Assembly: GCA_025057375.1 (NCBI GenBank)
Contig: JANWWO010000005.1
Location: forward strand, 1 to 64,000
Direction of reading: 5' to 3'
Length of the DNA: 64,000 nt
Source: Candidatus Absconditabacterales bacterium
Lineage (GTDB): Bacteria; Patescibacteriota; Gracilibacteria; Absconditabacterales; Absconditicoccaceae
Positions 4,467-46,776 of this stretch are shown here, in pieces; position 1 is the stretch's first letter; every line of letters starts with the position of its first letter. The notes below the pieces were generated by a model. The model was not told where the DNA came from and did not search any database. It saw only the letters and a program-made list of their open reading frames with translations. Made by a program: the position numbers and the translations under genes.

Positions 4467-5087
4467 TTATGGTCTGGCATTTTTTTTCCACCACCATAGT
4501 CGCATCCCACACGCAATCAGAACAAAGGGAATGACGAGGAATCGTTTGTATGTTTCCATTAAGGAAAAAATTTTTGCATAATGCTGTCCCAATACAAACC
4601 CTCACCAAATGAGGAGAAATGACCACAGAAATCATCATCCAAGCGTAACAAGGGTATAGAGCAAAAAATTGAGACGGACTGTGCCTGCAGGAAAAGAAAC
4701 AACACTTCTAATGATGGGAACCAGACGTCCAAAAAACATAAACCATAACCCATAACGTTCAAAAAGATCAAATCATGATGTTAAGACAGAAGGGGCAATA
4801 CCTAGCCATTTCCCATGACGATTGACAAAGGCTGTGATAGTATCTCTGTTGCCTCGATAGCCCAAAAAATAAAATGGTAATGTTCCTAAGTATGCTCCTA
4901 TTGTTGCCCAAAAAATACTTCGCCCAAACGAAAGAGATCCTTTGCTTGCAACAAATCATACAAAGGGAAGAATCAGTTCGCTAGGAATGGGAGGGAAAAC
5001 ATTTTCGATAATCATTGACAGAAAGACGCCAAGATATCATCGTTGCTCGATGAGGTCAAAGAGACTGGCAATAAAGGATTCAATCAT
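4467..5087 (-). CDS. DedA family membrane protein
   Basis: This 206-residue multi-pass protein belongs to the DedA/VTT superfamily, whose members include lipid-carrier flippases (for example of undecaprenyl phosphate) in other bacteria. The signature runs from FPPIPSELILPF near residue 30 to YGLWFMFFGRLVPIIRSVVS near 130, followed by FPAG. Many membrane glycines are TGA, including a GGG run written GGA-TGA-TGA. It could recycle the carrier used by MraY and the nearby glycosyltransferase; that role is inferred. Confidence 0.88.
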
Positions 5088-5166
5088 AGATATGTGGAGA
5101 ATAAAAGAATGAAAGTAGAGTGGTGATGAGTTGAATGTGTTAATTTGCCAGACGTGTGTATTGCGT

Positions 5167-5439
5167 CTATTTTATCATGTGCAATGATCGTTGTTGAGAT
5201 ATGATAGTCAAAATATTATTGGGCTCTGTGATTATTCCAACAAAGGTGTTTTTTGCTTGCTTGTCTTTTCGGGAGAATCAAGGAATGTGTGTTTTGCAAT
5301 ATATGTTTCTGCTAAAACAGATATTGATTTCTCTCTCATTTGCAAGAGGAAGAGATACGCGTGTCACCGTAATTAGTATTTTTTGCTTGCAATACAAAAA
5401 ATTATCACTACCATCACATATATACGCACTAGACATCAT
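5167..5439 (-). CDS. small hypothetical protein
   Basis: I do not recognise this 90-residue frame. It opens with ATG-ATG at 5439, contains one in-frame TGA (in HIPGFSRKD) and ends in TAG, leaving about 80 bases before the dedA start. Composition is protein-like, with a closing stretch NTFVGIITEPNNILTII. Against it, the promoter proposed for the divergent peroxiredoxin lies inside it, and a plus-strand frame from 5201 to 5536 also stays open but reads poorly. Confidence 0.35.
5387..5414 (+). promoter_or_regulatory. promoter for the peroxiredoxin gene
   Basis: TTGCAA (5387-5392), a 16-base spacer and TACCAT (5409-5414). It sits about 60 bases before the ATG at 5473 and matches the pattern repeated through the window. 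Confidence 0.5.
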
Positions 5440-39263: not shown

Positions 39264-40775
39264 TTACACAAATGCTTTGAGATATGGTTTTTTTTGGAGG
39301 AGTGGGTCTAGGCTTTTTTCTAAATGCTCACTATTTCACGATTTGGGATAGACGTATACTATGGGATCCAACAGTCAGGTAGGTCTGATGATTTGTTCGA
39401 CAATTCATTGGGACATTCCTGTTTCGTATGGTGCTGGTGTTGCTGATACAAAAAGTGTTTTTGCTCAACTTTTTGCGATATTGGCATTATTGGTGTCTGG
39501 ATCAATTGGATCTCCACGCTGGGTATCTGCCTGGGAGTCAATTGTATGGAGCATGCGATCATCACTATGCGTGGATTTGTACGGATAGGGTCGTTTGAGG
39601 ATATGCTGGAGCTCATGAAAAACGAGTGGTCTGTGATCAATGGCCGATGGGAGACGAAAGCCATGATTGATAAGATTGATTTTTCTTGCCCTGTCGCCGG
39701 CAGCCATACTATCGAGCTGGGGAATAGTCATATGTGATTCGTCGATGATGCACAGCATATCATCTGGGAAATAATCAAAAATGGTATTGGGTGTTTGACC
39801 AGGTCTTCTGCCATCAAAATAGGGAGAGTAATTTTCGATACCATTGGTAAATCATGTTTCTGCGATCATGCGAAGATCATAGGTTGTTTTTTTTCTAAGT
39901 CTTTGTTCTTCGATGATTTTGCCTTGTTTGAGGAGTTCTGCACAACGTGCTTCCATTTCGTTGGTAATCATTGTAATAATCGTCTGGAGATTTCATGCAT
40001 CTTGGAGATACTGTGTTGCTGGTCGGAGGAGGATTTTTTTACTTGTGCCAATGAGGGCAAACGTGAGTGAGTTTCTTATTTCAATATATTCGAGTTCGTC
40101 ATCATTGAAATAGAGTTTGTATACAACGGTATCGGTTGTTGCATAAATTTCAACAACATCACCACTGACAGCAAACATTCATGGTTCGATTTTGTTATTG
40201 ACGGGTTGATATTGCATTTTGATCAATTGTGCTTTGAGATCACGCAGATCATAACGCTTTCCTACTTCTACACTGAGAGACATATCTTGAAAAAACTCTT
40301 TGTGTCCTAACCCATACAATGCAGAGACTGATGCAACTACAATAACATCTGGGCGCGTCAGTAAGGATGCTAGCGTTGCCAATCTATACATCTGAATTTC
40401 TTGGTTGATTGTTGCTTCTTTTTCGATATAGAGATCTTGGGATGGGAGATACGACTCTGGTTGGTAATAATCAAAATAGGAAATAAAGTAATGAACAGCG
40501 TTGTTGGGAAAATAATGCTTGAATTCGGTGGCAAGTTGGGCTGCGAGTGTTTTGTTATGAGAAAGAACAAGGGTTGGTTTTTGGATATGGTTGATGATGT
40601 TTGCCATGGTAAACGTTTTCCCCGTTCCTGTTGCACCCATCAACGTCACCAAATGATTTCCTTGTTCAAAATGCGTGACGATTTCTCTTATTGCTTGGGG
40701 TTGATCTCCAGCAGGTTGGTAAGATGCAGTCAATTCAAAGCATTTGGTATGATCATAGTGAACTTGAGATGGCAT
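39264..40775 (-). CDS. uvrB: UvrB, excision nuclease subunit B, lacking the C-terminal helicase half
   Basis: UvrB is the damage-verifying helicase of nucleotide excision repair. The N-terminal part is well conserved: [15 protein letters not shown] (Walker A), [25 protein letters not shown] (beta-hairpin region), [11 protein letters not shown] (motif II) and [23 protein letters not shown]. The chain then ends at residue 503, after about 25 more residues, where families of 650-690 continue with the second RecA-like domain and the UvrC-binding tail. The 170 bases to the next gene do not encode the missing part in any frame. It is therefore truncated, functional status unknown. Confidence 0.9.
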
Positions 40776-40805
40776 GGGGATAAAAAATCTAAAGCAGTTA
40801 CTTCT

Positions 40806-40833
40806 ACTGTAGTGATTTTTTTTTGATTTGCTA
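40806..40833 (-). promoter_or_regulatory. possible promoter for uvrB
   Basis: Minus strand: TAGCAA (40833-40828), a 16-base spacer and TACAGT (40811-40806), 31 bases before the ATG at 40775. It matches the pattern less well than the others. Confidence 0.4.
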
Positions 40834-40945
40834 GAGAATATGAAAAAAAGCAGCAATACTATTTTGTATCGTTAGGTTATGAGGTATGTATACGAGCAAT
40901 GTTGTCTTGGTATAGATATGTTGATCGCATATTTGCATTGCGGTT

Positions 40946-43998: not shown

Positions 43999-44027
43999 GT
44001 TATTGATGTGAGTAGTATTTTTTGGCC

Positions 44028-44055
44028 TTGCAAGTGTCAAAAAAATCATTACACA
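44028..44055 (+). promoter_or_regulatory. promoter for dnaB
   Basis: TTGCAA (44028-44033), a 16-base spacer and TACACA (44050-44055), 48 bases before the ATG. Confidence 0.55.
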
Positions 44056-44102
44056 CAGACGACATTGCTTGTTGTCTTTCTGTTTTATTTTTTTCGTTTT
44101 GT

Positions 44103-45473
44103 ATGGTTGATACGCTCGCATCACTTCAGGTGCCTCCTCACAATATCGAGGCAGAAAAAAATGTCTTGGCTGGCATTTTTGTCGATCCAGAACTGTTGCA
44201 TGTCTATGATGGGCTTGCACTCAATCCGTCTGATTTTTATGATCAAGCACATCAACATATCTATACTGCGATCAAAACACTTGTTGCTGCTCATAAACCA
44301 ATTGATGTCTTGACAGTGACTGACCAAATGACCAAAGACAAAACTCTTGATCAGGTAGGGGGTGAGGATTATATCTATACGCTTCCTTCCTATTTGGTCA
44401 ATATTAGTGCCTGTGGCGACTATGCTCAAATCGTTAAAGAAAAATCTATTTTGAGGCAAATTCTCAAAACGTGCACCAAAATTGCTGCAGATGTTTTTGA
44501 CCAAAAAGATACCAGGGAAATTATTGATACGATCGAAAAAAGAATTTTTGATTTGACGCAGTTGAATATGCGTACGGGGCTTGTTCATATCAAAGATGTT
44601 CTCGACAAGAGAATTGAGGATTATATGGAGTTGGTTGACAATCCAAATTTGCTGGAAGCAAGAAAAACGTTGTCCCAATATCATAAACTTGATGATATGT
44701 TGAGTGGATTCAAAGCCTGAGAATTGATTATTTTGGCAGCTCGTCCTGCGATGGGGAAAACTTCATTTGCAGTCAATCTGCTCATCAATGCTGCCATTTC
44801 CCAACGCAAGTCAGTCGCGCTCTTTTCTCTCGAAATGACGGCAGAATCACTTGCCGATAGAGTCTTGTCTACCATGTCGACCATCCCTATGCACAAAATT
44901 ACTAAGGCCCAGCTTGATAATGATGATTATGCAAAAATGGGAGAAGCAATGCAGATCCTTGGTGATGTAAATATTTATGTTGATGATAGTGGTTCATTGA
45001 CTATTCCTGAGCTAAAAAGTAAACTGAGAAGATTGAAGATCGAGAAATGAGCATTGGATCTCGTGGTGATTGATTATCTGCAGTTGATGTCTGGCGTAGG
45101 GATGAAATTTGAAGGCAATAGGGTCCAAGAAATTTCCCAAATCTCTCGTGGGCTCAAAGAACTTAGCAAAGAACTCGCAGTTCCCATTATTGCACTTTCT
45201 CAACTATCGCGTAATGTAGAGTCTCGTATTGACAAAAAACCTCAATTATCAGATTTGAGAGAGTCTGGTGCAATTGAGCAAGATGCGGATGTTGTGTTGA
45301 TGATTCATAGAGAAGACTATTATGATCCTGATACAGATAAGAAAGGTGTGACTGATATTTTGATCAGAAAAAATAGAAACTGACCGACAGGTGAAGTTGC
45401 ATTGATGTTCAAGTCACAGACGATGAAGTTTGAAGAGTATGACGGACCTACAGGTAATTCCTTTGGATTTTAA
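44103..45473 (+). CDS. dnaB: DnaB, replicative DNA helicase
   Basis: DnaB is the hexameric helicase that unwinds DNA ahead of the replisome. The 456 residues include the N-terminal primase-binding domain ([17 protein letters not shown]) and the RecA-like motor with Walker [29 protein letters not shown], Walker [12 protein letters not shown] and [12 protein letters not shown], then [21 protein letters not shown]. No intein is present. UGA encodes only a few glycines (FKAGE, KIEKGA, RNGPTG). It works with DnaG, encoded at 51867-53480. Confidence 0.95.
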
Positions 45474-45581: not shown

Positions 45582-46625
45582 TTAGGTTATGTTTCTGGGT
45601 TGTCGGTGGATATTTCGTCCTTGTGTTGCGATGGCTGATTCCCAAACGATGGCATCCATAAATGGTCTAATATTATGTCCTCTGATGACAATATGATAGA
45701 GATACTGTCATCTGATTTTGTGTTTTGCAGGTGGTGTTTGAAAAATCATAAGTGATGATTGCAGTTTTGCTTGCCAGTATCGTAAGTGTTTCGTGATGGT
45801 GTCTACTTTCTTTTTGAGGTGGAGTGGATCATGATGGTGTAGTGAGATGAGACATTCTTCTCCAAAGGGAGGAAGTCACAACATTTTTGCGTTGGTATTA
45901 CAGTACTCTGTAAACTCGTCTGGCTTGCGACGTAGAAGCATGAGAAGGAGGGGGTTGTGAGGATTGATAGTTTGGATAATAATATGGTTGGGTCCACGAA
46001 GACAGTGGTTGTATAACGACCATCGTCCATGACTGATATGAGCATGATCACCGAGACGAAAAAAGAGATCTGCATCGAGAATGCAGGATGCTTTGAGTGG
46101 GCAGGGAGGTGGTGCAAAGCCAAGCGATGTTGCACAAAAGATAACGGGATGTTGTTCCCATTTGTGACGAAGGTGCATAATTTTTGATCGAGAATTTGTT
46201 GTTTTGGCATTGAGGATAAGCGGATGATATCCTTGTATACTGAGGTGTTCATACAGATGATTAAGCCCATATCAGACAAAGGTCAGTGTGTCTTTTTTTT
46301 TACACGATTCGCATTGATCACTGAGAGGGTAGTGTGTGTGGCAGATGCTACAGAGTGCAACGAATATATCCTGATGTTGTTTTTCATAATGGAGGACATT
46401 GTCGCAATGGTGACACGTTGGCATTGCACCACATGCATTACAGAGGCGGACATTGTGATATGATTGTTTGGATCAGATAAGAAGGAGATGATGATTGGGT
46501 GCATAGGAGTCGATTGTGGCTTGGGTGAGGGCAGAGAGAGTGTTTTTACTTGATTCTTTTTTCATATCGACGACATAGAGTGTCTTCCCCTGTCACCATT
46601 CTCGTTTTTCGTATTGAATCGTCAT
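45582..46625 (-). CDS. PriA-like protein lacking the N-terminal DNA-binding and first helicase domains
   Basis: The 347 residues match the second half of primosomal protein N'. The zinc-binding region is intact (RLCNACGAMPTCHHCDNVL, CSICHTHYPLSDQCESCKKK, then GYGLNHLYEHL), and the C-terminal helicase domain is recognisable (ASCILDADLFFRLGD, HIIIQTINPHNPLLLML, LPPFGEE). Absent are the N-terminal DNA-binding region, Walker A and DEAH motifs. Motif VI, normally AGRAGR, is also changed (LYNHCLRG). It starts with ATG at 46625 after a TTTTAGTTTTTTTG tract. It should not act as a helicase alone. Confidence 0.82.
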
Positions 46626-46650
46626 AGAACCAACAAAAAAACTAAAAGAG

Positions 46651-46776
46651 ATGAAGAAAAGACGATTGATCGTTCTTGCTTTTTTTGTATTTTTTCTTAT
46701 ACTCATTGTATTGTATATTTGTTATATGCATGTCGCTATTAGAACACTTCTTCTGCAAAGGAGACGTTGTAGGTAA
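46651..46776 (+). CDS. possible small membrane protein
   Basis: A 41-residue frame (MKKRRLIVLAFFVFFLILIV...) with a single membrane segment between basic ends, ending RRRCR. It lies 56 bases before the next membrane protein. It is short and may be chance. Confidence 0.35.
   Translation: MKKRRLIVLAFFVFFLILIVLYICYMHVAIRTLLLQRRRCR

Follow-up and report, generated by a model that had tools for sequence, protein, structure and literature searches.

The C-terminal half of a split priA in Absconditabacteria: a probable subunit of an ATP-free PriA made from two genes

The window analyzed here, a 64,000-nucleotide stretch of contig JANWWO010000005.1, carries on its reverse strand an open reading frame related to part of PriA (Table 1). 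Read under genetic code 25, the frame is open, with five in-frame TGA codons. The TIGR00595 (priA) model matched the encoded protein, PriA-C, over model positions 167 to 479 of 509 (E = 7e-25), with a score of 87.5 bits, below the curated cutoff of 230.35. Solved PriA chains in the PDB matched residues 17 to 274 (E = 4e-10), equivalent to E. coli residues ~390 to 653, and because the matched region runs from E. coli residue 390 onward, the gene begins where helicase lobe 1 ends and lobe 2 starts. The start codon at position 46625 aligns with a conserved family start (MNYE in relatives, MTIQYE here) and is preceded by a U-rich stretch, consistent with a preliminary description of this DNA, made from the sequence, which had proposed a true start with a U-rich leader.

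Table 1. Features of the split priA and uvrB genes and of dnaB in the window and on contig C1 of the same genome
Feature	Position	Strand	Description and basis
priA C-half (PriA-C)	Window, 45582-46625	-	347 aa, code 25; helicase lobe 2, zinc domain, and C-terminal domain
Zinc (cysteine-rich) region	Window, 46302-46442	-	Residues 62-108; eight cysteines as four CxxC pairs
Stretch with ruined motif V and motif VI deletion	Window, 46008-46151	-	About residues 159-206; alignment with whole PriAs
PriA C-terminal domain	Window, 45648-45869	-	Residues 253-326; Pfam PF18074, E = 2e-4, below gathering score; aligned
U-rich leader 5' of PriA-C start codon	Window, 46626-46659	-	Sequence
dnaB, replicative helicase	Window, 44022-45473	+	Translation; tail-to-tail neighbor of priA-C and its presumed client
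UvrB N-half	Window, 39264-40856	-	Helicase motifs intact
UvrB C-half	Contig C1, ~4480-5278	+	Helicase motifs intact
PriA-N (N-half of PriA)	Contig C1, 7772-8533	-	253 aa; family-specific N-half profile, E = 6.5e-21

All eight zinc-binding cysteines reported earlier as intact were found (C62, C65, C71, C74, C92, C95, C105, and C108), and all are invariant in the family alignment. The C-terminal domain is also present, as had been claimed, being weakly recognized by Pfam and supported by alignment, and the Walker A and DEAH motifs are indeed absent from the open reading frame. The preliminary description saw a protein cut down to its zinc domain and C-terminal part; both parts are there, but helicase lobe 2 is present as well. 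Motif VI (QVAGRAGR), described as altered, proved to be deleted in every aligned family member, the window protein included, and motif V is ruined too, reading ATSLGFAP in the window protein versus GTQMIAKG in whole PriAs, with GTSLLTTP-like sequences across the aligned family. An AlphaFold model computed from the single window sequence was too poor for use (pLDDT of 40). Judged by its sequence, the window open reading frame is a real C-terminal half of PriA that looks functional, and the proposed loss of helicase activity is supported.

A TIGR00595 search of the 1.13-Mb genome to which the window belongs found no whole PriA, the remaining matches being RecG and half of UvrB, so the possibility raised earlier of a full-length priA elsewhere in this genome falls away. 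The separate N-terminal half that the preliminary description recommended looking for was found on contig C1. Separate N-half genes encoding the 3'BD, lobe 1, Walker A, and DEEH or DEYH were present in four genomes from three other families of the class. When a general profile built from N-halves was searched against the window's family, it recovered a separate gene of ~245 aa, the match covering the part of lobe 1 that follows Walker A. In the window's own genome this general profile returned only RecG, because the resident PriA-N is too diverged, and the gene was recovered with a family-specific profile of 20 aligned N-halves. A profile built without the window genome's PriA-N still aligned with it over model positions 7 to 217, and the gene is not near a contig end.

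Several comparisons identify the family N-halves as PriA. Profile-profile alignment of the family-specific and general profiles gave a probability of 99.5% (E = 4e-23, 215 columns), with the PriA alignment starting at column 30 of the family profile. NCBIfam recognized family N-halves weakly, almost always as PriA (best E = 2e-12), a PDB PriA sequence matched at E = 8e-8, and Pfam gave no recognition. An AlphaFold model from 28 N-halves reached a pLDDT of 90.7 and a pTM of 0.88, and its nine best PDB matches were all PriA, with moderate TM scores of 0.5 to 0.6 over nearly the whole length. In the alignment of 20 N-halves, Walker A is missing, DEEH has mostly given way to DPHK, and NQQDPRY forms a conserved block where whole PriAs carry a similar one ending in PRY. 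Sequence searches with PF17764 (3'BD) gave nothing above cutoff in these N-halves, and in the alignment the 3'BD-like region and lobe 1 lie too close together for a winged helix to fit between them. PriA-N thus comprises a probable 3'-binding-domain region and a lobe 1 that has lost Walker A by deletion and carries other residues in place of DEEH. The earlier view of a PriA reduced to half its length is not supported, as the N-half survives in this genome as a degenerate gene of its own and the fission runs through the family.

Named loci identify the family as Candidatus Absconditabacteria (SR1), which are tiny, probably host-dependent bacteria. Among 36 genomes of this family, spanning ~22 genera, PriA-C was found in about 34, PriA-N in about 33, and both in about 32; the genomes without both halves are assemblies that are 65 to 90% complete, and none of the 36 contained a full-length PriA. 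The single-contig genomes G005, G009, and G026 (the closed CP006913, RAAC1_SR1_1) all encode both halves and no full PriA. Across the family, priA is split at the border of helicase lobes 1 and 2. Because the truncation of PriA-C is family-wide, a misassembly at 46625, which had been offered as a possible refutation, does not explain it. An assembly or annotation artifact can be dismissed almost with certainty: the window's genome is a 21-contig assembly, but the identical architecture recurs in the three single-contig genomes and in dozens of independent assemblies, and neither PriA gene lies at a contig end.

Within the family, PriA-N and PriA-C have diverged furthest in the window's genome, where PriA-C is the fastest evolving (end branch of 2.9 versus a median of 0.54 in the gene tree) and so could be drifting. 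The UvrB halves of this genome score as in relatives, which suggests an acceleration specific to PriA. Such divergence, together with the lost ATP-site motifs, would fit two pseudogenes, remnants of a PriA on its way out of a reduced genome. We consider this very unlikely, since the frames are open, the eight zinc cysteines and the conserved start are kept, and both halves persist across the ~22 genera. Between close relatives, dN/dS was 0.04 to 0.13 for PriA-C and 0.075 to 0.225 for PriA-N, and this range of 0.04 to 0.23 indicates purifying selection on both genes.

The ATP site of SF2 helicases is built from motifs I and II, which lie in the N-half, and motifs V and VI, which lie in the C-half. 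Across a sample of 193 genomes of the class, PriA is whole in most families, and it is split in the window's family (f1) and in four others (f3, f9, f14, and f21). One genome each of f3 and f9 has a split PriA with intact motifs. PriA is split in nearly all sampled f14 genomes, and in those that were read, the PriA-N motifs are intact and motif VI is partly kept. The split PriA of f21 has lost all four ATP-site motifs, the same state as in f1. The residues that replace DEEH in the PriA-N of f21 differ from those in f1 (for example, EDSLH or EDAF). Together, these related families show a series from PriA that is whole and apparently active, through split and active looking, to split and apparently dead. 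A third alternative, that the split pair keeps ATPase activity through other residues or that PriA-C pairs with lobe 1 of another helicase, would have a candidate partner in the intact RecG of the window's genome; with Walker A, DEEH, and motifs V and VI all gone in f1, we give it hardly any weight.

In the gene tree, f14 groups with f21, f1 forms one clade, and f3 and f9 are nested among whole PriAs. Approximately unbiased (AU) tests rejected neither a tree uniting every split form (P = 0.28) nor one uniting the two dead families (P = 0.19), so these tests are compatible with one or more than one fission and ATPase loss. Another genome, G046, is TGA recoded and has 27 in-frame TGA codons in priA, yet its PriA is whole; PriA fission does not simply follow the change of code. 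No relatives of PriA-C were found in viral contigs.

Motif loss is concerted across the two genes: the ATP-site motifs are gone from both in f1 and f21, and in f3, f9, and f14 each gene retains all or most of its share. This is the best evidence that PriA-N and PriA-C still belong to one machine. The genes are not in one operon, and they lie 6 kb apart in G005, ~450 kb apart in G026, and on separate contigs in the window's genome. Such distances would also fit halves that have parted company, with PriA-C acting as a stand-alone zinc protein that binds single-stranded DNA (ssDNA) or SSB, PriA-N as a stand-alone fork binder, and no joint complex. This explanation is unlikely, although more probable than decay. 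Against it stand the joint presence of both halves in almost every near-complete family genome, the finding that families missing one side of the shared ATP site are also missing the other, and the simultaneous acceleration of both halves in the window's genome.

Fission of a second helicase gene was also resolved. UvrB, likewise described earlier as cut to half, has its other half elsewhere in the same genome, and it is split at the border of lobes 1 and 2 family-wide, with the N part extending to about model position 440 and the C part starting at about 428. UvrB is whole in almost all other genomes of the class. Both proteins are split at the lobe border in this family; the helicase motifs are intact in UvrB, whereas they are lost in PriA. 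The parallel fission of UvrB and PriA suggests that these organisms tolerate or favor SF2 helicases made from two genes.

In our preferred reading, to which we assign a probability of roughly 70%, the window gene encodes the C-terminal subunit of a two-gene, ATP-free PriA whose halves dock and reload DnaB without unwinding. In E. coli PriA, leading-strand and parental DNA are touched by the 3'BD and lobe 1, whereas lagging-strand ssDNA passes through a pore framed by the cysteine-rich region, lobe 2, and the C-terminal domain (CTD); the cysteine-rich region is also where PriB docks, and lobe 2 and the CTD receive DnaT (PMC10175261; PMC13377028). By these contacts, the split separates a half that reads the fork from a half that forms the ssDNA pore. 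By analogy, PriA-N would read the fork and PriA-C would form the pore for lagging-strand ssDNA and serve as the platform for helicase reloading. The two would dock via the old lobe 1-lobe 2 interface, and the complex would bring DnaB to abandoned forks with no unwinding of DNA. Loading of DnaB through the zinc domain, as the preliminary description suggested, is plausible. In E. coli, restart by PriA-PriB can do without ATPase activity (PMC10175261), and the PriA of Deinococcus radiodurans is a natural pseudohelicase that has no ATPase activity and binds fork DNA and DnaB (PMC4504706). As both halves lack the parts needed for ATP use yet remain under selection, replication restart in Absconditabacteria probably works without a helicase motor.

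How DnaB is loaded in these genomes bears directly on this mechanism. The dnaB gene lies beside priA-C in the window; a neighbor test found that this neighborhood is not conserved among relatives, and the proximity therefore carries no weight as evidence. DnaC- and DnaI-type loaders (IstB/DnaC-type AAA+ proteins) were not detectable in the window's genome, where the only PF01695 match is DnaA; a check for such loaders had been recommended earlier. DciA (PF05258) was not detectable there either, and it was absent from the 36 family genomes save for one sub-threshold match. In 23 other genomes of the class, DciA was detected in all 19 that have a whole PriA and in none of the 4 whose PriA is split, a pattern we treat as a lead and not as proof because DciA is short, several matches are weak, and the genomes are related. 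We tentatively raise the possibility that, where PriA is split, a two-subunit ATP-free PriA replaced DciA as the general DnaB loader, for restart and possibly at the origin, and that fission allowed DciA loss and motor decay, possibly more than once (in f1 and f21). The paired loss of detectable DciA connects restart with helicase loading in a way that can be tested directly.

The split PriA amounts to an experiment by nature on the purpose of PriA. Across the family, selection has preserved the zinc domain and the parts predicted to recognize forks and to form the ssDNA pore, while the ATP site and the covalent link between the lobes were discarded. This supports a long-standing genetic argument, that E. 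coli PriA can restart forks even when its helicase is dead, and provides a minimal system for asking how DnaB arrives without a known loader. Searches of the open literature found nothing relevant on PriA in Absconditabacteria or CPR or on PriA as a split protein. As far as that literature shows, a split, ATP-site-dead PriA pair is unreported; it represents a variant of the known PriA pseudohelicase and not a new kind of system.

Compared with known systems, DciA (PMC9825169) is a widespread DnaB operator or loader that would share with split PriA the delivery of DnaB without an AAA+ loader; it is a short protein unrelated to PriA and was not detected in split-PriA genomes. E. coli PriA (PDB 8FAK and 6DCR; PMC10175261) has homologous lobe 1 and lobe 2-zinc-CTD parts and, probably, a homologous 3'BD. 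It differs in being a single 732-aa active helicase with a winged helix and with PriB, DnaT, and DnaC as partners. The D. radiodurans pseudohelicase (PMC4504706) has in common with the Absconditabacteria pair the loss of ATPase and helicase activity, predicted from sequence for the pair, while binding of fork DNA and DnaB is documented for the D. radiodurans protein. That PriA is one full-length polypeptide with motifs I and II substituted, whereas in Absconditabacteria there are two genes, Walker A and motif VI are deleted, and the winged helix is gone.
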